Positions 6,684-60,084 of a stretch of 64,000 bases of DNA are shown one piece after another. Positions within the stretch are counted from its first letter, which is position 1; the number at the start of each line of letters is the position of its first letter. The stretch is taken from positions 62,001 through 126,000 of the forward strand of contig JAUYRN010000026.1 of the NCBI GenBank assembly GCA_030696775.1, in the 5' to 3' direction. The DNA comes from Sulfuricurvum sp. (GTDB lineage Bacteria > Campylobacterota > Campylobacteria > Campylobacterales > Sulfurimonadaceae). Made by a program: the position numbers and the translations under genes. Below the pieces are notes generated by a model that saw nothing but the letters and a program-made list of their open reading frames with translations, had not been told where the DNA came from and did not search any database.

Positions 6684-7896
6684 TAGTTCCCTCTTTAAGT
6701 GAAATAGTAGACTCTTTTTGTTCAACCAAATCTTTTATCCAAATCGTATTATTCAGCCGTTCATTTTCACCGATTACTGCACAATAGCGAGCATTGATAC
6801 GATCGGCCCCTTTGAGGTGATTTTTAAGACTTTTTGCATCATATTCAACGACAGCTTTATCCGTTTTACGAAAATTTTCAGCAGCTTTGAGAATGAGCGG
6901 TAATGACTCCGCTTCCATTGCTCCAAGATAATAACCTTCACGAACGGGTTCCGGCATTACTATGAGCTCCATGAGTCTCTCAATCCCTAGAGCAAATCCT
7001 ACCGCAGGGGTTGGCTTCCCGTCTAAAAATTCGATAAGACGGTCATAACGTCCCCCTCCGGCAATAGCGCTTTGAGAGCCGATTTCATCACTGACAAATT
7101 CAAAGGCAGTTTTAGAATAATAATCCAGTCCGCGTACGAGATTGGTATCAAGTTCATAATTAATATTATGCTGATCTAAAATAGATTTAAGGGTTTCAAA
7201 ATCACTTTCGCACCCCGTACAGAGATGATTGAGGAGTTTTGGTGCTTGGGTATAAAGATTTTGGCATGCTTGATTTTTACAGTCCAATACACGGATGGGA
7301 TTGGTTGATTTACGGCGTTGGCAGTCTTCGCAAATAGCATCTCCGCAGGTATCAATAAAAGCAATGAGTTTCTCACGATAAGCAGGCATGCAGTTTTGAT
7401 CACCCAGAGAGTTAAGTTTTAGGCTGTAACCGATCCCCAAAGCTTTTAGAATATCAGCAACCATCATAATCATCAATGCATCTTCATAGACGGAATCCAC
7501 ACCAAAACTCTCTACTCCAAACTGGTGAAACTGACGTAACCGACCTTTTTGGGGACGTTCGTAGCGAAACATTGATCCATGATAGTAAAAGCGGTGAATT
7601 CCCCCTTTTTTATCCAGCTTGTTTTGGACAAAGGCTCGAACTACTCCTGCTGTTCCCTCGGGGCGTAAGCATACGTCGTTGCCACCCTTGTCAGTGAACT
7701 GATACATCTCTTTACCTACGATATCACTGCTTTCACCCACGGAGCGCTTGAAGAGAGCTGTTTCTTCCAGAAGCGGGGTTTCGATGTAATGAAAACCGTA
7801 ACGTTTAGTGATAGTGGAAGCAGTAGAAATAAAATACTCAAAACGTTCATAGTCGTTTGAGAGAATATCATTCATTCCGCGTAAAGATTGGATCAT
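6676..7896 (-). CDS. hisS: Histidyl-tRNA synthetase
   Basis: This is a class II aminoacyl-tRNA synthetase of 406 residues, slightly shorter than the E. coli enzyme. Motif 2 is FRYERPQKGRLRQFHQFG. The histidine-specific segments LVRGLDYYSKTAFEF and the glycine-rich GGGRYDRLIE are present, and motif 3 contains GFALGIERL. It overlaps tmk by 4 nt at its start and speA by 8 nt at its end, consistent with translational coupling. Confidence 0.96.
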   Translation of the reverse strand: MIQSLRGMNDILSNDYERFEYFISTASTITKRYGFHYIETPLLEETALFKRSVGESSDIVGKEMYQFTDKGGNDVCLRPEGTAGVVRAFVQNKLDKKGGIHRFYYHGSMFRYERPQKGRLRQFHQFGVESFGVDSVYEDALMIMMVADILKALGIGYSLKLNSLGDQNCMPAYREKLIAFIDTCGDAICEDCQRRKSTNPIRVLDCKNQACQNLYTQAPKLLNHLCTGCESDFETLKSILDQHNINYELDTNLVRGLDYYSKTAFEFVSDEIGSQSAIAGGGRYDRLIEFLDGKPTPAVGFALGIERLMELIVMPEPVREGYYLGAMEAESLPLILKAAENFRKTDKAVVEYDAKSLKNHLKGADRINARYCAVIGENERLNNTIWIKDLVEQKESTISLKEGTNE

Positions 7897-8474
7897 TCGT
7901 TTCCTTTTATGAGATCGGCGATCTCGTTTGTAATAGTATCAATAGATTGTGACGCATCGATTACAAAGGTTTGTATCCCCAGTTCTTGGGATGCTTTTAT
8001 AAGAGCTTCTTGAATATTAAGCAAGTAGTCAATTCCTCGAGATTCTATAACATCATGCTCTTTTTGAGAGAGTCGATTTGCTAGTTCTTGTGGAGAAAGT
8101 TTTAGGATAAAAACTTTCTCAGGGAACTTTCCGCCAGTAGCAAGTGTGTTAAGAGATACAAGTGTCTTAATATCACAAATATCTTGTACTAAAGCATATG
8201 CAACCCCAGAAACAGCGGAACGATCACTGATGATCAGAGAATTAATATTAGGAAATATGATGCTCTCAGTATGCTCAGCACGATCGGCTAAGAAGAGGAG
8301 CAATTCTGCCATTTTACTTTTAAGTTCTCCGTGCAGCACCATAGAGCGTATTTCTACACCGACAGGAGTTCCTCCCGGTTCTTTGGTATAAACAGCTTCC
8401 GGAAAAAGCGATTTTAGGCACTCAATCTGGGTGCTTTTACCCGCGGTATCAATCCCCTCTATTGCAATGTACAT
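7893..8474 (-). CDS. tmk: Thymidylate kinase
   Basis: Tmk phosphorylates dTMP to dTDP. The 193-residue protein begins with the P-loop EGIDTAGKST, followed by KEPGGTPVG, DRAEH and the DR motif SDRSAVSGVAY. It lies in the minus-strand operon between coaD (16-nt overlap) and hisS (4-nt overlap). Confidence 0.95.
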   Translation of the reverse strand: MYIAIEGIDTAGKSTQIECLKSLFPEAVYTKEPGGTPVGVEIRSMVLHGELKSKMAELLLFLADRAEHTESIIFPNINSLIISDRSAVSGVAYALVQDICDIKTLVSLNTLATGGKFPEKVFILKLSPQELANRLSQKEHDVIESRGIDYLLNIQEALIKASQELGIQTFVIDASQSIDTITNEIADLIKGNE

Positions 8475-51387: not shown

Positions 51388-51711
51388 TAGGTACACAGGT
51401 GATAGCTTGAATCACAATTCAAGAGGAAAGTCCGGGCTGCTGTAGGACACGGTTCCATCTAACTGATGGCCATGGTAACATGAGGGACAGTGCAACAGAG
51501 AGTAGACCGCCTTGTCAAAGAGGTGAGGGTGAAACGGCGGGGTAAGAGCCCACCAGTCTCATAGGTAACTATGAGAGCTATGTAAACCCAACCGTGCAGC
51601 AAGAAACAGATGGTTAGCGTCCTACATTGCTATTGTTTCGCTAGAGGCTCAGAGTAATTTGGGCAGTAGATTAATTATCACTTTATCCAGAACCCGGCTT
51701 ATGTGTACCTA
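51388..51711 (+). ncRNA. rnpB: RNase P RNA (rnpB)
   Basis: This is the catalytic RNA of RNase P, about 324 nt. The universally conserved core is present: GAGGAAAGTCCGGGCT (P4 5' side), CAGTGCAACAGAGAGTAGACCGCC-type CR-II (51490s), GGTAAGAGCCCACCAG (CR-III) and a 3' segment CCGGCTTATGTGTACCTA. The outer P1 helix is TAGGTACACA at 51388-51397 paired to TGTGTACCTA at 51702-51711, a perfect 10-bp complement. The 3' strand of P1 is also the attachment core used by the integrated elements downstream, so insertion keeps the RNA intact. Confidence 0.95.
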
Positions 51712-51714
51712 CTT
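51695..51714 (+). repeat. Attachment site copy 1 (attL) at the rnpB 3' end
   Basis: CGGCTTATGTGTACCTACTT covers the last 17 nt of rnpB plus ACTT-type flank. It recurs exactly at 58858-58877, and its first 17 nt recur at 59997-60013. With a tyrosine integrase gene starting 29 nt further on, this is the left boundary of the mobile region. Confidence 0.88.
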
Positions 51715-51742
51715 CCCCTGTAAGCGCCTGTACGACGGGGTT

Positions 51743-52786
51743 TCAGAGCTTCCTAATCTTCGACTGTGACCGTATTGTGTCAAATAAATCGAAATTTTTT
51801 CCCAAATCAATCGTTTTAGAATCAATCACACTTGCATAATATGATAATGTAATCTTCGGTGTCGAGTGACCCAACAATCCTGCAAGCTCATTTATACTCA
51901 CTATGCTATCTTGTAGCATGATCGTTGCAAACGTATGACGAGTTGAATACAACTTTCGTCTTTCCATGTCACACCGTTTTAGAAGATTCCACCATCTACT
52001 ATGCAATCGTGAAACGTCGTTATTATTTCCAAACAAAAAAATGTGATCTTTTTGCATTGCATTCAATTCATCAATGACAAACTGAGGGCAGGGTATACGA
52101 CGTATTGAGTTACGCGTTTTTGGATGATCTATCCGTCCACACGTTCGTACACGCTTAATATCAATCCAACCATCACCTATATCTCCTAATTGCAATCCTA
52201 GAATCTCTTCTGGACGCATACCTGTATTAAATGCAAGCATCAAATAAGGACGCATAATAGAAGTTGCGTTTGAGATCAAGAGATTGACTTCTTCTTTTGT
52301 GAAATAATCAACTTTCTTCGTTCCGTCAGCGGGTAGCTTGATGTTAACCGCAGGGTTAGTTTTGATTGTTTCATCATCTAACGCTAATTCGAAAATCTCT
52401 TTGAGAGCGTGTTTATACGCTCCTTTGGAAACTGATTTGATAGGTAGATCAAGAATGTATCGTTTTACATCAAGACGTGTGATCCGATTAATATCAACGT
52501 CTTTAAATCTCTCATTAACTTTATTCCATTGGTGTATCTTTTTAAAATACGCTTTGTTTCCGTCTTTGAGTTTTAAAAATATATCAAAATAGTATCCAAA
52601 CGTTTTGGGCTTATTTTGATGTATTTCACCAGTTGCGATCATGGTCATTAGCTTTGGAATAATTGTTTTTTTAACGAGAGTCCGATTCTCTTTCGTATCG
52701 TCGAGCCCCGTTGCTTTACGCTGACGAATTCCGTCAACATAATAATCAATCCATAACTTATTACCACGTACAAAACTATTTGCCAT
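51743..52786 (-). CDS. int: Tyrosine-recombinase integrase
   Basis: The 347-residue phage-type integrase has an N-terminal arm-binding part, a core-binding SAM-like domain (about 60-145) and a catalytic domain. The catalytic domain contains NTGMRPEEILGL (Arg I), TRHTFAT (His/Arg box), LLGHSTPKIT and SYYASV (nucleophile Tyr). I start at the ATG at 52786 with GAGGATAG upstream; a start at 52846 would overlap the xis-like gene. It is adjacent to attL, as expected, and should catalyse integration into rnpB. Confidence 0.93.
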   Translation of the reverse strand: MANSFVRGNKLWIDYYVDGIRQRKATGLDDTKENRTLVKKTIIPKLMTMIATGEIHQNKPKTFGYYFDIFLKLKDGNKAYFKKIHQWNKVNERFKDVDINRITRLDVKRYILDLPIKSVSKGAYKHALKEIFELALDDETIKTNPAVNIKLPADGTKKVDYFTKEEVNLLISNATSIMRPYLMLAFNTGMRPEEILGLQLGDIGDGWIDIKRVRTCGRIDHPKTRNSIRRIPCPQFVIDELNAMQKDHIFLFGNNNDVSRLHSRWWNLLKRCDMERRKLYSTRHTFATIMLQDSIVSINELAGLLGHSTPKITLSYYASVIDSKTIDLGKNFDLFDTIRSQSKIRKL

Positions 52787-52833
52787 TTTTCTATCCTCTC
52801 GGACAGAAACGCTATGCTGTGGAATTATAGCAC

Positions 52834-53055
52834 TCATTTTACGCACAACCGTTTTAGTACATCTTGGGTTCGCTGATCAATGTCATCATGAATAATCAAA
52901 GAGTGCATCTTTTCAACGTTAAAACGGACAGCTTTTCCAATCAGAACGAAATGTTCATCTTTTATAATATTAATTCTTCTAAACATGCGACGAAGCGTGT
53001 CAGGATGGACATCATAGTACTTTGCTAAGTGAGGAAGAGATAGATACTTTATCAT
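52834..53055 (-). CDS. Excisionase-like MerR-type helix-turn-helix protein
   Basis: The 73-residue protein has an N-terminal helix-turn-helix LSLPHLAKYYDVHPDTLRRM and an FNVEKMHSLI wing, as in small Xis or MerR-like DNA-binding proteins. It lies just upstream of int and overlaps the preceding ORF by 4 nt. An excision or copy-control role is inferred from size and position. Confidence 0.75.
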   Translation of the reverse strand: MIKYLSLPHLAKYYDVHPDTLRRMFRRINIIKDEHFVLIGKAVRFNVEKMHSLIIHDDIDQRTQDVLKRLCVK

Positions 53056-53279
53056 GATCTTTCCTTACTTGATGAGTATTTATGAGAGGTACGATTTTCT
53101 AATTCATTCCTCGCCATTTCAATCTGTTCAGTTAATAGCAGATATTTATCTGAGGTCTTATCTAACTTGTACCGCTCTAAAGAAAGATCAATTAATAATC
53201 TACGCAAGCCGTGTATTGATTCGTACCTAATAGATTGGTAATGCTTATGTGCATACGCTTTTATATCAATTTGATTCAT
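53052..53279 (-). CDS. Small helical protein of the integrative element
   Basis: I do not recognise this 75-residue protein. It is charged and helical (YKLDKTSDKYLLLTEQIEMARNELENR), with no motif. The start at 53279 has GAGG upstream and overlaps the rep gene by 12 nt. The stop overlaps the xis-like start by 4 nt, so it is translated as part of the rep-int operon. Confidence 0.6.
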   Translation of the reverse strand: MNQIDIKAYAHKHYQSIRYESIHGLRRLLIDLSLERYKLDKTSDKYLLLTEQIEMARNELENRTSHKYSSSKERS

Positions 53280-53289
53280 AATCTTGACC

Positions 53290-54609
53290 TCACGCAAACG
53301 GATTTTCGTAATCAATGCTACGAATATCAATTTCACGGCATACAATCATGTACCGTTCGTATAAATCTAAATGAAGCGGATCACTTAGAGGAATACTGTG
53401 CATTTCCCTAGACAAACTTGCTTCAAGGTTTTGCAACCCTTCGTCACTGTACGTTTGAAGTTCATCTTCAAAGCTAGGTTTTTCAATATGTGCTTCATGC
53501 AAATTTTTGAGATTTTGTTTCAGATCAAAGTCATCCCGTGCTTTTTGGAGTACATCAAGCATAAAATAAGCTGTTGGATCACTTTGATGAATGAACAGAC
53601 GAGTAATAATTTTCTTCATAGACTTTTCCGCATCTTCAAGAGAGTATCGGAAGGTGATTTTTTCAATCTTCTCTAATGGCGTATCAATCTGCATAAACTC
53701 TTTGATGCTGTACGAATCTTTGACATGTTGCCAAATTGGCAATGTCTCTGCTCTTCGACGGTTAGGCGTATTTATATCTTTATCGCTTATGGTTGTCAGA
53801 TCAAGTAAGCGAATCGCATCACAAGCATGTTTAAACAGTGTCTCAGCACGTAAGAGAACATCATCAACCGTATTGATTCCAAAAGGCTTTAAATACTCTC
53901 TGTGCATCTCAAATTCAACATTAAATATCGGTTGTTCAATATCCAAACCATTAACACCAAAATGATTGTGCATAAGATCACGTTTGATCTGTGTTGCTGT
54001 TTTTAATTCTCTGCGTTTGTTATAAATACGGAGCAAAAACGGTTTCTTACCCACGTAATAGGTTTCAAGTTCGTATGCTCCCATATGTTCGGCTATATTG
54101 GCATGCTGATCTTTTTTCTTTGAGAGGATCATTTCCTTACGTAGATAGCTAAAGTCATGTTGTACGAACATATTGAGATCAATACGAGTTATTAAAAATA
54201 CATTCATGGTGAGTTCATGCAAGAATACTTTATTGATGTACTCAATAAGAGATTTTAAACCGAGAGTGTAAATTCCTACTGCATTAACTTGGACACGGAT
54301 GTTTTGAATATTGGGAGATTTTTCGGAGTCTTTGAAGGCTATACGAAAGAAGTCATGATAAAACCAGTGAAAGCCGTCACGACCCATACCACTGTATAAA
54401 ACATCAATGTTATTTATTTTTACGATGATGTCATTATCTGCATAGGCGTAATTAATGCTTTTAAAATAAGCTTTTTTATCTTCGATCTGATCCATGAGTT
54501 CTTCAAAGAATCGTTCGTAAAAAGCACCGCTTTGGGCGAAGTATTGGAGAGCGTCGATACCGCTCACAACTGGGGTTGAATTAATTAGGTTTGGCGTTAT
54601 CATTTCCAT
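53290..54609 (-). CDS. Rep_trans-like rolling-circle replication initiator
   Basis: The 439-residue protein shows the spaced motifs of Rep_trans/RstA-type initiators of plasmids and filamentous phages: ITRIDLNMF at 140-148 and ETYYVGKKPFLLRIYNKRRE at 182-201 (tyrosines at 184, 185 and 196). The N-terminal region, IDALQYFAQSGAF, also fits. It would nick an origin and prime rolling-circle replication. A hairpin-rich DNA segment directly upstream (54684-54757) is the candidate origin. The family call rests on motifs only. Confidence 0.68.
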   Translation of the reverse strand: MEMITPNLINSTPVVSGIDALQYFAQSGAFYERFFEELMDQIEDKKAYFKSINYAYADNDIIVKINNIDVLYSGMGRDGFHWFYHDFFRIAFKDSEKSPNIQNIRVQVNAVGIYTLGLKSLIEYINKVFLHELTMNVFLITRIDLNMFVQHDFSYLRKEMILSKKKDQHANIAEHMGAYELETYYVGKKPFLLRIYNKRRELKTATQIKRDLMHNHFGVNGLDIEQPIFNVEFEMHREYLKPFGINTVDDVLLRAETLFKHACDAIRLLDLTTISDKDINTPNRRRAETLPIWQHVKDSYSIKEFMQIDTPLEKIEKITFRYSLEDAEKSMKKIITRLFIHQSDPTAYFMLDVLQKARDDFDLKQNLKNLHEAHIEKPSFEDELQTYSDEGLQNLEASLSREMHSIPLSDPLHLDLYERYMIVCREIDIRSIDYENPFA

Positions 54610-54683
54610 GATGGTTAAACCTTTTCATAAACGTACTATTTTTCATTGTTGATCCTTTTAATTTTAGATGTATTTGATTTATG

Positions 54684-54757
54684 TCTGGGGATGTTATTAG
54701 AATCCCCAGACGCTAACGCGCGAAGCGAAAGGCAGAACCACATGGGGGCAAAGCCCC
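54684..54757. other. Hairpin-rich candidate replication origin between rep and ssb-like genes
   Basis: TCTGGGGAT-(9)-ATCCCCAGA at 54684-54710 is a perfect 9-bp stem with a 9-base loop GTTATTAGA. GGGGC-aaa-GCCCC follows at 54745-54757. The segment is far more GC-rich than its surroundings, and the block AACGCGCGAAGCG lies between the hairpins. Between a rolling-circle rep gene and an ssDNA-binding gene this is the natural place for the nick site, but a terminator or RNA control element would look similar. Confidence 0.5.
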
Positions 54758-54795
54758 AAGCTGGCTCAGACCTACGCATACGCTACGGCCTCTTT

Positions 54796-55053
54796 TTATA
54801 TACCGTAGAAGATTGTTTTACCAATCGTGGCAACGTCTACTTCTACAACTTCGTTCTCTTTGCCCTTATAGAGCTTTACTTTCTCGGAAGGGATCGAGAG
54901 ATCCATTAGCTCTTTACGTGAACCACCGTTTTTAAGAGGCGTTTCTAAGAGCAACTGCAATTTATTTTTACCTTTGATGATCTCACCCGTTTCTTTATTG
55001 GTAAAATCATTTCCTATATAGACGTTTAAAAGCGTCGCTGAGATTTTGATCAT
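54796..55053 (-). CDS. Small probable single-stranded DNA-binding protein
   Basis: The 85-residue protein reads as a beta-barrel: MIKISATLLNVYIG, NKETGEIIKGKNKLQLL, LSIPSEKVKLYKGKENEVVEV. It resembles the small helix-destabilising proteins of filamentous phages and rolling-circle plasmids by size, fold pattern and position before rep. AAGGAGGG lies 8 nt before the ATG at 55053. No specific motif proves it. Confidence 0.5.
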   Translation of the reverse strand: MIKISATLLNVYIGNDFTNKETGEIIKGKNKLQLLLETPLKNGGSRKELMDLSIPSEKVKLYKGKENEVVEVDVATIGKTIFYGI

Positions 55054-55087
55054 TGTCAAAACCCTCCTTATTTAAAGTTTGGATTTT

Positions 55088-55103
55088 GACTAAGCGCTTA
55101 GTC
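55088..55103. promoter_or_regulatory. 16-bp perfect palindrome upstream of the ssb-like gene
   Basis: GACTAAGCGCTTAGTC is a perfect palindrome 35 bp before the ssDNA-binding-like gene. It lies where a promoter for the leftward rep-int transcript would be. It is a good operator shape for a dimeric repressor. No repressor gene is recognised in the element, so the xis-like protein or a host factor may use it. Confidence 0.5.
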
Positions 55104-55153
55104 GATTGTTATAACGGTGAAAGTATGCAGGATGAAGAAGTGAAAGTGTATGT

Positions 55154-55176
55154 AAAAATTATCGGCTTATAACCGA
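55154..55176 (-). terminator. Candidate terminator of the retron operon
   Basis: On the minus strand TCGG-ttataag-CCGA is followed by TAATTTTT, directly after the third gene of the retron operon. The stem is only 4 bp; an overlapping ATAACC/GGTTAT pairing is an alternative fold. Weak evidence. Confidence 0.35.
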
Positions 55177-55185
55177 AAAGAAGGG

Positions 55186-56253
55186 TTATTTGGAGAGGTA
55201 GGAGGAGAAATTTTTCGGTAAAAAACCGAAATATTTTATTTTTAGCCTTGAAAGTCTGTAAAATAGGGGATTTGTAGCTATTAAATCAAAGTAAGGTGAA
55301 AATTGAGGATCGTTCATCATGGGATGAGCTTTCTTCATATTTTTAACAAATATTTTTCCGACTCGGTTTTTTTGCTTTTTTGTCTGATTATTATCAATGT
55401 CAAAAACAGCAAACTCACCGATAACATTTTTCAAATAAGCATCTTGCTTATTAAAGTCTGTAAAATTTTTATAATCTTTATCAAACGAAAAATAGATCAA
55501 GCGATTGATTATGACTTTTAAATCAGATACTTCGAGATTATTTTTAAATAATTCAAAAATTTGCATTGCCATGCTTTTGAAAATCATATCTGGCGTTGCG
55601 TGACCAACTTCAAAAAAATCTAAAATATCATTAATGACTTCATTGATTTTCCCTTCTTTAAGTTCTTCTTGAAAAAAATCATCATTGCGATATTCTATAA
55701 AGTGTAGTAAAAAGAAATTGATATGTTCAGGGTGCTTTTTCTTCATTATGGCTAACATGCGTCTTACTTCAATCTCACGACGTGCTTGTGGATGAGAGAG
55801 TTTATTCTCATTTTCACCTTCAAGTTTTTTTGTCCAATGTTCGATTAAATTATCTAGCTTCCCATTCTTACCAGCTTCATAATACGCTATACGTTTATTG
55901 TCTTTATCGACTTCTTGTGTTAAATCAAGTGCTCTACGACCTTGTGACACAATTAAAGCGACAAAAAATGTTAGAGGAAATACACGAAGTGTATTTTCCG
56001 TAAGCAGATATTCATTTTCAAATGAGGAAAGCTTTTTTAAGAGTGCTTCGATTTCACTAAGTGGGTTAAATTTATGTTCATGATCTGCAAGTATGTCAGA
56101 TTCTAAAAGGATTTGATGTTGTGTCATTAATTCGAGGGTTTCATTAAAAAGATCATCACGAGATTCGTATTTGATTTGTTTTCGAGATCGGCGTTGAGCT
56201 TTGACAACTCGACGCATCATCCACCAAAATTTTATAATTTTAAAAAATCTCAT
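55186..56253 (-). CDS. Unrecognised third gene of the retron operon
   Basis: This 355-residue protein is not recognised. The N-terminus has an aromatic, basic patch (FFKIIKFWWMMRRVVKAQRR) that may touch membrane or nucleic acid. The middle is helical, with ELMTQHQILLESDILADHEH, RREIEVRRMLAIMKKKHPEH and FFEVGHATPDMIFKSM. The C-terminus is rich in aromatics and lysine. No catalytic motif is clear, and there is no signal peptide. Its ATG overlaps the RT stop by 4 nt (ATGA), so it is translated with the RT. Whether it is a retron component or ordinary cargo is open. Confidence 0.8.
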   Translation of the reverse strand: MRFFKIIKFWWMMRRVVKAQRRSRKQIKYESRDDLFNETLELMTQHQILLESDILADHEHKFNPLSEIEALLKKLSSFENEYLLTENTLRVFPLTFFVALIVSQGRRALDLTQEVDKDNKRIAYYEAGKNGKLDNLIEHWTKKLEGENENKLSHPQARREIEVRRMLAIMKKKHPEHINFFLLHFIEYRNDDFFQEELKEGKINEVINDILDFFEVGHATPDMIFKSMAMQIFELFKNNLEVSDLKVIINRLIYFSFDKDYKNFTDFNKQDAYLKNVIGEFAVFDIDNNQTKKQKNRVGKIFVKNMKKAHPMMNDPQFSPYFDLIATNPLFYRLSRLKIKYFGFLPKNFSSYLSK

Positions 56254-57179
56254 GGTCGTTTCAGTGGTAAAAGCTCTTGAATCAAATCAGAACTATATTT
56301 TGTTTTCAAATTTTGAATGTATTCTGGCTCAATAGAGTATATATAAGATAGATATCCTTTTAAATAATTCAATTGTTTAAAATCAAGTTTCTGTTTTGAA
56401 TATTTGAATATTAAACTTTTAATATATCTTTTTTTATCTCTTCCTATCGAAAGTTTTCTATCTGTAGTTAGCCTTAAGCCTGTAACTTGTTGACTTGTTT
56501 TACGTGAAGTATTAATCGTTTTTTTATTATTAATTCTTAGTCGAATAAAAAAAGTCTTTAAATATTCACTCAATGATGGAAGAATATACTTTAAAATATC
56601 AGGTTTAGATGTAGAAAAATACAAATCATCAGCATATCTTGTGTAAGTAATATCCCTTTGTGAGCAATATAAAGTTAAAAATTCATCCAAATCATATAGA
56701 ATTATATTGCTAATAATAGGTGATGATGGAGCCCCAATAGTTAATCTACCACCCTTGCAGACAAGTAAATTAATTAATGTGATATCATGCTCTTTCAATG
56801 TAACTGGTAATACTGTTTTGCTTTTTGAACGTAAAAATTCACGAATATGCTCACTTTGAATAGAAGAAAAAAAATCAATAAAATCAATACGAAGTAAAAA
56901 ATTAGACTTTAAATGTTCCAAGGCCATTTGTTTTATATTCTTATCTCGTTGATACGAATAAACAGAAGCATGTATGGGAAAATGACTAAATATGTTTGAA
57001 ATTATGTATCGTTGATATTCTTTTAATTCGGCAGATGGCTGAGCAATTTTCCGCAAACCACCTGTTCTCTTTGGAATCTCGTAAACTTTGTAACGTCTTG
57101 ATGCATAAAAAGAAAATCGAAAAACTTCTGCAAACGTTTTTGAAAATTTTTGACATATTTCATTATTAAAATCTGTCAC
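56250..57179 (-). CDS. Retron reverse transcriptase (St85/Ec86-like)
   Basis: The 309-residue RT is about the size of Ec86 RT (320). Motif A is LLRIDFIDFFSSI (Asp99), motif B is GAPSSPIISNI, and the catalytic motif is TRYADDLYF (YADD, 182-185). The retron-specific VTG is at 232-234 (QQVTGLRLT). An MALEH at 85-89 stands where retrons have NAxxH, a change of the first residue. There is no maturase, endonuclease or protease domain. The start is a GTG that overlaps the effector TGA by 4 nt. It would make msDNA from the adjacent RNA. Confidence 0.93.
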   Translation of the reverse strand: MTDFNNEICQKFSKTFAEVFRFSFYASRRYKVYEIPKRTGGLRKIAQPSAELKEYQRYIISNIFSHFPIHASVYSYQRDKNIKQMALEHLKSNFLLRIDFIDFFSSIQSEHIREFLRSKSKTVLPVTLKEHDITLINLLVCKGGRLTIGAPSSPIISNIILYDLDEFLTLYCSQRDITYTRYADDLYFSTSKPDILKYILPSLSEYLKTFFIRLRINNKKTINTSRKTSQQVTGLRLTTDRKLSIGRDKKRYIKSLIFKYSKQKLDFKQLNYLKGYLSYIYSIEPEYIQNLKTKYSSDLIQELLPLKRP

Positions 57180-58093
57180 TGTCTAAGCCTTTTTTTATCT
57201 TCAGAATATTCAATTTCTAAAGCCATAAGGTGAACTCGATCACGCTCTGATAAACTAAAACTAATAAATTCATAATTTTCATCAACAGGAAGAAAATAAA
57301 TATTTTCCTCAACTTCTTGACGAATAATTAATCCTGATACAACTAACATAGATATATTAACTGTAAAATCTTTTGTATCATATCTAATATCAGAAAAAGT
57401 ATCCAAAATCATTTCTGTTGCAATTTGTAATTGTGTATATGTTAAAAATGGTAAAAGCCTAATCAGTTCATAAGTAATTGCGAGAGGAAATAATAGACTA
57501 TTAACAAACTTATGAACTTGTCGATTGGCTTCATAGTCTTTTGCCAAATTTTCAATAAGTCTGTCAAAACGATCTTCAGGAATCCCAACATGATTGAAAT
57601 CAAGAAATAAAGGGCGCAATGTTCTTGTATTATGAATAACATCTATTAAATGGTTTAAATAAGACTCTTGATCGGAATAAGCATAATCATTAGCTATATA
57701 CATCTTCTGTTTTGTTTCTTCAATAGCAGTAAAGTAGCCAAGTTCTGCATAGGAACCAGCACTTTCAGGAAAAATTATTAGTGAATGGGCCTGTTTGATG
57801 GCACGCAATTCTAAATCAACCAATGCTATTCGTTGTGCAGTGACGCCTTTTTTATTGGAACTGTAAGCTTTCAAATCATTGTATAAAGCTTCAATTGTTA
57901 TAAAATTAAAAGGAGTCCTATGAGCATTTATATATGTTAAAAATTTTGCACGATTCGATTTTAATGTATCATCACTTGCCATACCAAAAACAAATACAAC
58001 TTCTAAATGTTCCCTAATAGACTTGACGGTAGTAAAGACAAATTTAAGATTATTAACACGTTTTTTTAATTCAGTAAAAGAAATGATAGACAT
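57176..58093 (-). CDS. Retron effector, nucleoside deoxyribosyltransferase-like (St85 family)
   Basis: The 305-residue protein has the NDT-like signature FPESAGSYAELGYF at 108-121, with the presumed catalytic Glu117. VVFVFGMASDD lies near residue 32 and ALVDLELRAIKQAHSLIIF before the signature. Residues 205-305 look like a winged helix-turn-helix DNA-binding part, as in the Ec86 effector of type II-A retrons. Those effectors act as toxins held off by the RT-msDNA complex, an established model for Ec86 and its relatives. Gene order (RNA, effector, RT) and sizes match Ec86 closely. Confidence 0.9.
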   Translation of the reverse strand: MSIISFTELKKRVNNLKFVFTTVKSIREHLEVVFVFGMASDDTLKSNRAKFLTYINAHRTPFNFITIEALYNDLKAYSSNKKGVTAQRIALVDLELRAIKQAHSLIIFPESAGSYAELGYFTAIEETKQKMYIANDYAYSDQESYLNHLIDVIHNTRTLRPLFLDFNHVGIPEDRFDRLIENLAKDYEANRQVHKFVNSLLFPLAITYELIRLLPFLTYTQLQIATEMILDTFSDIRYDTKDFTVNISMLVVSGLIIRQEVEENIYFLPVDENYEFISFSLSERDRVHLMALEIEYSEDKKRLRQ

Positions 58094-58094
58094 A

Positions 58095-58129
58095 AATGAG
58101 GTTCATGAATAGGGATGTTACTCCTCATT
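58095..58129 (-). promoter_or_regulatory. Hairpin at the effector ribosome-binding region
   Basis: On the minus strand AATGAGG (58129-58123) can pair with CCTCATT (58101-58095), directly before the effector ATG at 58093. The strong Shine-Dalgarno-like GAGGAG is inside the 5' arm and about 28 nt from the ATG. Pairing would hide it, or bring it near the start if only the loop base remains open. It lies between the retron RNA and the effector gene. Confidence 0.4.
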
Positions 58130-58135
58130 CACTTT

Positions 58136-58303
58136 TCTTTCCTACTTTTAAGATACGAAGTTCTTCTTATAGAGCTTTGGAACGAATGTTACAAAGGGCT
58201 AGAAGAAAAACTTCGTAGACCAATGTAACACAATAGAAGTCGACCCGGCTATACACCAGGCACAAGCTTAAAAAAATAATGTTTTAAGCCAAGCTAGGAA
58301 AGA
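58136..58303 (-). ncRNA. Retron msr-msd non-coding RNA
   Basis: The 168-nt RNA is read leftward. The a1 arm TCTTTCCTA (58303-58295) pairs perfectly with a2 TAGGAAAGA (58144-58136). Right after a1 comes TAGC, the context of the branching guanosine in Ec86; the predicted branch G is at 58294. msr has stem 1 GCTTAAAA/TTTTAAGC (58289-58266) and stem 2 CCTGG/CCGGG (58260-58244). msd is a long hairpin at 58217-58154. Its stem opens TACGAAGTT/AACTTCGTA and continues to about 26 positions with 3 mismatches and a 12-base loop. Position, size and fold match a retron RNA. Confidence 0.87.
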
Positions 58304-58306
58304 TAG

Positions 58307-58312
58307 ATGATA
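58307..58312 (-). promoter_or_regulatory. Candidate -10 box of the retron RNA promoter
   Basis: TATCAT on the minus strand lies a few bases before the a1 arm, and T-rich DNA precedes it (ATATTTTTGGTTTTATTG). A start near 58300 would put a1 at the 5' end of the transcript. Motif evidence only. Confidence 0.3.
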
Positions 58313-58362
58313 GCACAATAAAACCAAAAATATGAACTAGATATGCAATATTATCTGTTCAA

Positions 58363-58488
58363 TTATTTATTATTGACGATCTTATGTAGATCATCTAGAG
58401 TTTCATCAACATTTATATCCCTATCATCCATAAAAGTAAGTTTAGCTTTGCCTATAAAAACTTTATCTAAAACGGGAATAATAGACTT
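58363..58488 (-). pseudogene. Possible gene fragment upstream of the retron RNA
   Basis: A short open frame on the minus strand encodes about 41 residues ending FMDDRDINVDETLDDLHKIV and a TAA. An in-frame TAG stops it upstream, and no start codon or ribosome site is convincing. The residue pattern looks protein-like (amphipathic, acidic). It may be the 3' remnant of a gene lost from the element, or chance. Confidence 0.25.
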
Positions 58489-58857
58489 GATCTAGTTACT
58501 TTTACCATATGCCATCTAGTATTATTTATTTTGATATTATATATACATAGCTTAAGAAGAAGGACATTTATCAGAGACTATGTAGAAAATAGGGGTCTTA
58601 GTATTTTAATTCATGATATTCACTAGGAATAAATATTTAGCTTTTCTGTGATTGAAACTATAATAGCTTACAGTAATTTTACGTTGATTAAAGTGCCTAT
58701 TTTAATATTTTATAGTCAACTGACACTAGTGTACGAGTTTTTTATATGAAGTTATGATGAGATTTATTCAAAAAGTGTGCCAAAGAAACATATAAAAGCA
58801 TAGCGTTTCAGTCACAGTAGTGCCTCTAGCCCCCTGAAATAGGGGGTAAAAGTAACA
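58489..58857. other. Non-coding right end of element 1
   Basis: No gene is seen. From 58683 on, the sequence resembles the right end of the second element at 59827-59996 in blocks (GTTGATTAAAGTGCCTATTTT, ATAGTCAACTGACACTA, AAAAGCATAGCGTTTCAGTC). CCCCCT-gaaat-AGGGGG at 58830-58846 is a short hairpin just inside the att core. The part 58489-58682 is AT-rich and has no recognisable signal. Confidence 0.6.
58683..58857. repeat. Att-proximal terminal segment, element 1
   Basis: This segment is similar to 59827-59996: GTTGATTAAAGTG versus GTTGTTTGAAGTG, TATAGTCAACTGACACTAGTGTA versus TATAGTCAACTATCACTAATGTA, and AAAGCATAGCGTTTCAGTCACA versus AAAGCATAGTGTTTCTGTCACA (compared in pieces). Both end at an att copy. 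The conserved pieces are candidate integrase arm or accessory protein sites. Confidence 0.7.
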
Positions 58858-58877
58858 CGGCTTATGTGTACCTACTT
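58858..58877 (+). repeat. Attachment site copy 2 (between the two elements)
   Basis: CGGCTTATGTGTACCTACTT is identical over 20 bp to 51695-51714 inside rnpB. The preceding bases (AACACGG versus AACCCGG) differ by one. This is attR of element 1 and attL of element 2. The C-terminal codon and the stop of the nucleotidyltransferase-like gene lie within and next to it. Confidence 0.88.
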
Positions 58878-59603
58878 TTTCTGCTCATCTACATAATGTT
58901 CAATGGCACTTTTTATATTGACTAGTTTATTGGGATTGCCCTGAAGATTTTTAAAATACACCGACATGTCGTTTTCTTCACCCAACTGTAACGATGCGAT
59001 TTTTGCACAAACTTGCAAAAACACTTCATAAGGTACATCATCTCCACGTTTTAAAAAGTAGATTGCCCGCTGGAGAGAAACAAAGGGATTAATACTAACT
59101 TTGGATAAACGGTTGACTCGTGTATTGATATAGTTAACAAATTCGATTCTCATGTCGCATCTGACGATAGTAAAGAGCCTTTTAAGTGTATCGTAATGGC
59201 ACTCAAAAGCAATTTTTGTAGAATCAAAATCAAAGCCCTCTACTAGTTCTTCTAGCGTTGCATCCCTAAACCTCTCCCGATAGACAAGCTGGTAAATGTC
59301 ATTTTTGTATTTGTAAGTATAAGAGTTGTTCTCGTACTCGAAATAATCCTTATTCATTGCATTGTTGATCAGTTCCTGATCTTCTTTCGACGGAAAAAAC
59401 AGATCAAGATCTCTGAATGCATCTGCCTTTATGCATGAGCCTGCCAAATAAAAGTGAATATCCCGTTTATCGATATGGTCGATAATCAGTCTTTGGAAGA
59501 AGATATTAAGTTTGATGGCTATGCTATCGAGCCTATAATCGAGCAACGATGCTTGATCATACGAAAGCAACTGATCGTAGTCTTTCCAAAAATCGTAAAT
59601 CAT
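58872..59603 (-). CDS. Nucleotidyltransferase-like protein in the second element
   Basis: The 243-residue protein has a minimal polymerase-beta-type nucleotidyltransferase signature, LAGSCIKADAFRDLDLFF: GS at residues 55-56 and DxD at 65-67, here DLD. The C-terminal half is helical (FVSLQRAIYFLKRGDDVPYEVFLQVCAKI). It could be a toxin- or defence-type NTase, or a housekeeping-like enzyme; I cannot choose. The gene's TAG stop lies inside the att core at 58872-58874. It is the only gene of the second element. Confidence 0.75.
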   Translation of the reverse strand: MIYDFWKDYDQLLSYDQASLLDYRLDSIAIKLNIFFQRLIIDHIDKRDIHFYLAGSCIKADAFRDLDLFFPSKEDQELINNAMNKDYFEYENNSYTYKYKNDIYQLVYRERFRDATLEELVEGFDFDSTKIAFECHYDTLKRLFTIVRCDMRIEFVNYINTRVNRLSKVSINPFVSLQRAIYFLKRGDDVPYEVFLQVCAKIASLQLGEENDMSVYFKNLQGNPNKLVNIKSAIEHYVDEQKK

Positions 59604-59826: not shown

Positions 59827-59996
59827 GTTGTTTGAAGTGTCTATTTTAGGCATTTTACAATTTTTTAGTTTTTATAGTCAACTATCACTAATGTAAAAAT
59901 TGACGGGATGTTTTGAGCCAAAATACTGCCATTAAAGCATAGAAAAGCATAGTGTTTCTGTCACATCATTGCGGTATTTACGAGGTTTTTACAATT
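59827..59996. repeat. Att-proximal terminal segment, islet 2
   Basis: The partner of 58683-58857: blocks of shared sequence occur in the same order with insertions between them. An AT-rich insertion (ACAATTTTTTAGTTTT region) separates the first two blocks here. Both copies end at an att core. Confidence 0.7.
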
Positions 59997-60013
59997 CGGC
60001 TTATGTGTACCTA
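59997..60013 (+). repeat. Attachment site copy 3 (outer attR)
   Basis: CGGCTTATGTGTACCTA is identical to the last 17 nt of rnpB. Here it is followed by GCTTTTTTATC, a T tract that looks like the original rnpB transcription end. The integrations have thus moved that T tract 8.3 kb away from rnpB. Confidence 0.88.
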
Positions 60014-60084
60014 GCTTTTTTATCTGCTAAGTAACAATCAAAGTATATATTAAAATATAAATCAAAATAAATTTATGCTAAATA

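Follow-up and report, generated by a model that had tools for sequence, protein, structure and literature searches.

Retrons are bacterial anti-phage systems in which a small RNA-linked DNA keeps a toxin in check. A preliminary description of the 64,000-nt stretch of Sulfuricurvum DNA analysed here (the window, in its full length) noted a putative retron RNA with a branch context like that of Ec86. This raises the question whether the locus encodes a retron and, if so, of which type. In this study, we analysed the RNA, the neighbouring proteins and the surrounding element computationally. The locus is very probably a St85/Retron-Sen2-like type II-A retron and the cargo of an integrative element, in which reverse transcriptase (RT) and msDNA would restrain an NDT-like effector until phage attack. 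The features of the locus are listed in Table 1.

Table 1. Features of the retron locus and its element (window coordinates).
Feature	Position	Strand	Basis or remark
Retron ncRNA (msr-msd), a1 to a2	58136..58303	-	fold z -7.96; R1 172 bits; covariation in 6 and 8 homologues
a1 (TCTTTCCTA)	58295..58303	-	sequence; pairs with a2; helix 1 covaries
a2 (TAGGAAAGA)	58136..58144	-	sequence, alignment; conserved TCTTAAAAG precedes a2
Predicted branch G	58294	-	follows a1; TAG[CT] in 6/6 founding homologues
msr stem 1	58265..58290	-	MFE, consensus helix 2
msr stem 2	58243..58261	-	consensus helix 3; 98% cells paired, 5 pairs changed both sides
msd hairpin	58154..58217	-	MFE as RNA and as DNA; helices 4-5 covary
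Predicted msDNA, ~76 nt	58145..58220	+ (sequence as on + strand)	start just inside a2; predicted ends
Promoter-like site TTCATA-18-TATCAT, TGC before -10	58307..58336	-	scan; few bases upstream of a1; consensus match only
Effector, 305 aa	57176..58093	-	NDT/TIR-like N-terminal domain, winged-helix-like C-terminal part
Retron RT, 309 aa	56250..57179	-	YADD, VTG
355-aa ORF, possible accessory gene or element backbone	55186..56253	-	overlaps RT stop by 4 nt
Integrative element with retron, 7.2 kb	51715..58877	.	at rnpB 3' end; 24-nt direct repeats; empty site L050

Fold of the retron RNA

The ncRNA (58303→58136) is encoded on the minus strand, as are the RT and the effector. The 168-nt RNA folds at -59.2 kcal/mol compared to -32.2±3.4 kcal/mol for shuffled sequences, none of which (0/200) folded as well, and the DNA copy folds likewise (z -6.8). 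The perfect 9-bp pairing of a1 and a2, described previously with the strand unstated, was found on the minus strand between 58303→58295 and 58144→58136. Both segments had first been spotted by eye, and the homologues are an independent test of them. The G following a1 had been predicted as the branch site, and the homologues support this. In the predicted fold it is a single unpaired base, because the CUU after it pairs with the AAG before a2, and retron biochemistry points to branching at this position.

Two msr stems and a long msd hairpin had been described and were recovered here, and the boundaries and direction of msd copying agree with homologues and covariation. In alignments to gammaproteobacterial retrons, msr stem 2 is the part most clearly common to the St85/Ec78-type msr. 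Instead of the three mismatches reported for the msd stem, we found three internal loops (1x1, 2x2, 1x1), which comprise four mismatched positions. Loop and bulges had also been considered specific to this retron. This holds for the internal loops, which vary among members, but not for the tip TAACATTCGTTC, which is nearly the same in three relatives (CAACATTCGTTA in L004, CAACATGCGTTA in L010 and L012). A tip motif CGTT[AC] occurs in 7 of 14 clusters, which none of 20000 shuffles equalled; however, after correction for the choice of motif, 21 of 1000 shuffled sets reach this level, and the recurrence is only suggestive. In addition to the promoter-like site in the window, each of the six founding homologues has a -10-like hexamer ahead of a1 (match at 5 or 6 of 6 positions; consensus evidence only).

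Covariation and RNA searches

A covariance model of retron RNAs had been named as a check, and we built such a model (R1) from six Campylobacterota RNAs that were aligned without structure information. The alignment supports five helices with 90.6% of the cells paired, and pairing drops to at most 52% once the partners are slid by one. Changes on both sides were observed in 22 of 46 pairs compared to 9.2±2.0 in shuffles, although the rows are related and the counts are thus not independent events. With two held-out members added (eight homologues), 23 pairs were changed on both sides and 91.5% were paired. Apart from the window RNA, R1 recovered these two relatives (E 1e-37, 159 bits and 7e-28, 122 bits; all R1 E-values are rough owing to a short calibration). 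Searches of the window with the library models of Rfam, at gathering and relaxed thresholds, gave no retron family and a chance SNORA36 match only.

R1 was further applied to gammaproteobacterial loci with St85-type RTs, upstream region included. The RNA was found in 16/16 of these loci (E ~3e-3 to 2e-8), which stem from plasmids, phages and E. coli chromosomes and include several near-identical copies. All matches lie on the correct strand before the RT or effector. The set contains type I-A systems with PtuA/PtuB (L020, L038, L044) as well as NDT systems (L021, L041), and the E-values in four E. coli St85-family loci ranged from 1e-6 to 3e-7. Thus, R1 finds St85/Ec78-type RNAs where they are expected. 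No match at E<=10 was obtained in the Ec86 locus (L037), and none in a Pf-phage fragment (L048), which may not contain the RNA. Since msd hairpins are near-palindromes, R1 matches them on the antisense strand as well; antisense matches were disregarded.

The gene order ncRNA-NDT-RT recurs in seven related loci: in a Sulfurimonas MAG (L004/L007), two genomes of the order (L005; L006, Arcobacter caeni), an Arcobacter MAG (L010), a Sulfurovum MAG (L012), a genome of the same genus (L071/L075) and one of the same family (L072/L076). The effector is present in 4/397 sampled Campylobacterota genomes and in 4/228 of the family. The RT as single query retrieved no relatives from genome contigs and viral contigs, and the NDT effector none from plasmids and phages. 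In L076 (10776-11951, 12401-12573) a transposase gene splits the effector, the RNA does not have TAGCTT after a1 and the RT is open; this locus is apparently a decaying retron. A second RT domain was observed in the same genome as the window (G000:C25:295957-296460; L002), inside a 716-aa open frame.

Effector and reverse transcriptase

On the minus strand the ncRNA is followed by the effector, the RT and the 355-aa ORF, with overlaps of 4 nt between neighbouring ORFs. An RT with retron signatures stands beside an RNA with a1/a2, a predicted branch G, msr stems and an msd hairpin. The RT exceeds the cut-off of NCBIfam retron_St85_RT (309.9 vs 235) and the effector that of STM3845_fam, the retron St85 family effector (112.9 vs 100), although NCBI also applies the 'St85 family' label to Ec86 proteins. 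PADLOC ranks RT_II-A best (332 bits), followed by RT_I-A (303), and assigns the effector to NDT_II-A (2e-26). In a sequence search of the PDB, the RT matched St85/Ec78/Ec83-type (I-A/St85) RTs with E 2e-54 to 7e-57, whereas the RT of Ec86 gave 9e-29. The RT carries FFSS where relatives read FFPS, a change that is unexplained.

An AlphaFold model of the effector, built from six relatives (pLDDT 74), has the Retron-Eco1 effector as its best fold match (Foldseek 6e-8; VIA Z 11-12, rmsd 6.3-6.9 Å). The match spans the model at a high rmsd of 6-9 Å and at 17-19% identity. In the profile alignment, E117, which is invariant in six relatives, corresponds to E106 of Eco1, which carries the mutation in the inactive structure 8qbl. 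By sequence, the Ec86 effector is likewise the only retron match in the PDB. Since no structure of a St85 effector was found there, the match to Ec86 does not discriminate between the types.

For the 355-aa ORF, none of four libraries yielded a family match. A 66% identical homologue directly follows the RT in L075; elsewhere the RT is followed by unrelated genes or none, and the ORF was therefore rejected as a conserved fourth retron gene.

The element at rnpB

The 24-nt 3' end of rnpB (51691-51714) is repeated at 58854-58877 and 59993-60016. Besides the retron, the region between the first two repeats encodes an integrase, an HTH protein, a replication-protein-like ORF and an 87-aa ORF. In the sister genome G406 the site is empty (L050): rnpB directly joins a sequence matching the window from 59997 onward, and the two flanks are 99% and 97% identical to the window. 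From the repeats and this empty site it follows that the element carrying the retron is 7.2 kb long and is adjoined by a remnant or second element of 1.1 kb. This second small insert, between the repeats 58854-58877 and 59993-60016, carries a 243-aa ORF (58872-59603) that is nucleotidyltransferase-like by eye; its sole match is phrog_4400, a PHROG without known function.

The element belongs to a family (also L007, L009 and L075) with a Rep_trans-like protein, an 87-aa ORF, an HTH protein, a tyrosine integrase and retron cargo. No library recognised the Rep_trans-like protein at threshold; in the window (53290-54609) the Rep_trans match is sub-threshold (E 0.048) and the AlphaFold model is poor (pLDDT 48). 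It is 57% identical in L007 and about 35-41% in L009. In L075 it is 95% identical, compared to 63% for the RT, 50% for the effector and 66% for the 355-aa ORF, which suggests that the retron module is exchanged on a conserved element backbone. The insertion sites differ, with rnpB in the window and a site beside a tRNA-Asn array in L009. In four genomes of the genus (L054, L056, L058, L068) a sequence with 72-74% identity to the integrase region directly follows rnpB, and rnpB therefore appears to be a recurrent integration hotspot. The Sulfurimonas element L007 carries, upstream of its retron, a 349-aa ORF (7225-8274; phrog_30889, SIR2-like by eye), possibly further defence cargo.

Alternative interpretations

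One alternative is an Ec86 (Retron-Eco1)-type retron. The preliminary description pointed in this direction: TAGC does follow a1 as in Ec86, the Ec86 effector is the nearest in fold and in PDB sequence, and the NCBI family name covers both. However, the effector match is non-discriminating, as explained above, the RT is far nearer to Ec78/Ec83/St85-type RTs, R1 finds the RNAs of these types and not that of Ec86 at E<=10, and neither an Ec86-related RNA nor the order effector-ncRNA-RT was found in the window. An Ec86-type retron is thus largely refuted and very unlikely. Judged by its sequence, the window retron is a St85-family member and not of the E. coli Ec86 type, and the analogy to Ec86 is a short branch-site resemblance only.

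Such a St85-type retron might have decayed, with an RNA that still folds and msDNA production lost. Decay occurs in the relative L076, the msd stem of the window has internal loops absent from L010, and the RT has FFSS. Nevertheless, both window ORFs are intact with their 4-nt overlap, and a1/a2, the branch G, YADD and E117 are retained, so that we regard decay as very improbable. It is also conceivable that the effector-RT mRNA has ordinary hairpins here that act in termination or regulation, since they occupy the leader upstream of the effector ORF. This is extremely improbable: a scan of the region gave no terminator-like site, the five-helix architecture and the blocks TAG[CT]..GGCTTAAA / TCTTAAAAGTA are conserved in Campylobacterota, and in the second phylum R1 matches only upstream of retron genes. 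Finally, it seems unlikely that the 355-aa ORF is a dedicated accessory, for example a second effector or sensor, with the CGTT[AC] msd tip as a recognition site.

Proposed mechanism

The analysis shows the structure of the RNA, the homology, the order of the genes, the families of the proteins and the mobility of the St85-type retron. How it branches, where the msDNA ends, and which toxicity, substrate and trigger it has, we infer as follows. The transcript would start near a1, and a1-a2 pairing would present G58294, from whose 2'-OH the RT would prime and copy the msd from ~58145 to ~58220. The product would be a hairpin msDNA of ~76 nt joined to the msr RNA; in Sen2 and others, the msDNA ends are set by host RNase H1 (PMC8989520). 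The NDT-like effector would be bound and held inactive by RT and msDNA; an inactive complex of RT, msDNA and toxin is known from relatives (PMC12409349). A phage enzyme might then degrade or modify the msDNA and thereby free the effector; the trigger in Sen2 is a phage exonuclease that degrades msDNA (PMC12409349). The freed effector, with its NDT/TIR-like fold and E117, would attack a nucleotide, most likely NAD+, which the Ec86 toxin depletes (PMC12409349), and the infected cell would stop. By homology, the window retron most likely follows the same scheme as Sen2 and Eco1.

Comparison with known retrons

This study extends the St85-type retron RNA to Campylobacterota, with covariation evidence, where Rfam finds none in the window. 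The same RNA architecture is used with NDT and with PtuAB effectors in two phyla, R1 is a tested model able to locate St85-type retron RNAs, and the rnpB element shows how such retron systems move. Among the known systems, Retron-Sen2 (St85; RcaT effector, type II-A) is similar in that the cut-offs for the St85 RT and its NDT-like effector (RcaT/STM3845) are passed here, and in Sen2 an ORF is likewise located between msr-msd and RT (PMC6868368). In contrast, the host of the window retron belongs to Campylobacterota and the primary sequence of the RNA has diverged; the likeness is drawn from the proteins and the gene order. Retron-Eco7 (Ec78) and Retron-Eco4 (Ec83), both of type I-A, have RTs of a type that is 37-42% identical (tblastn; PDB E ~1e-55) and RNAs of a type recognised by R1, but PtuA/PtuB effectors in place of the NDT-like protein. 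Retron-Eco1 (Ec86) shares the effector fold and the position of the catalytic glutamate, whereas its RT is distant, its RNA is unmatched by R1 and its genes in E. coli C are ordered effector-ncRNA-RT instead of ncRNA-effector-RT.
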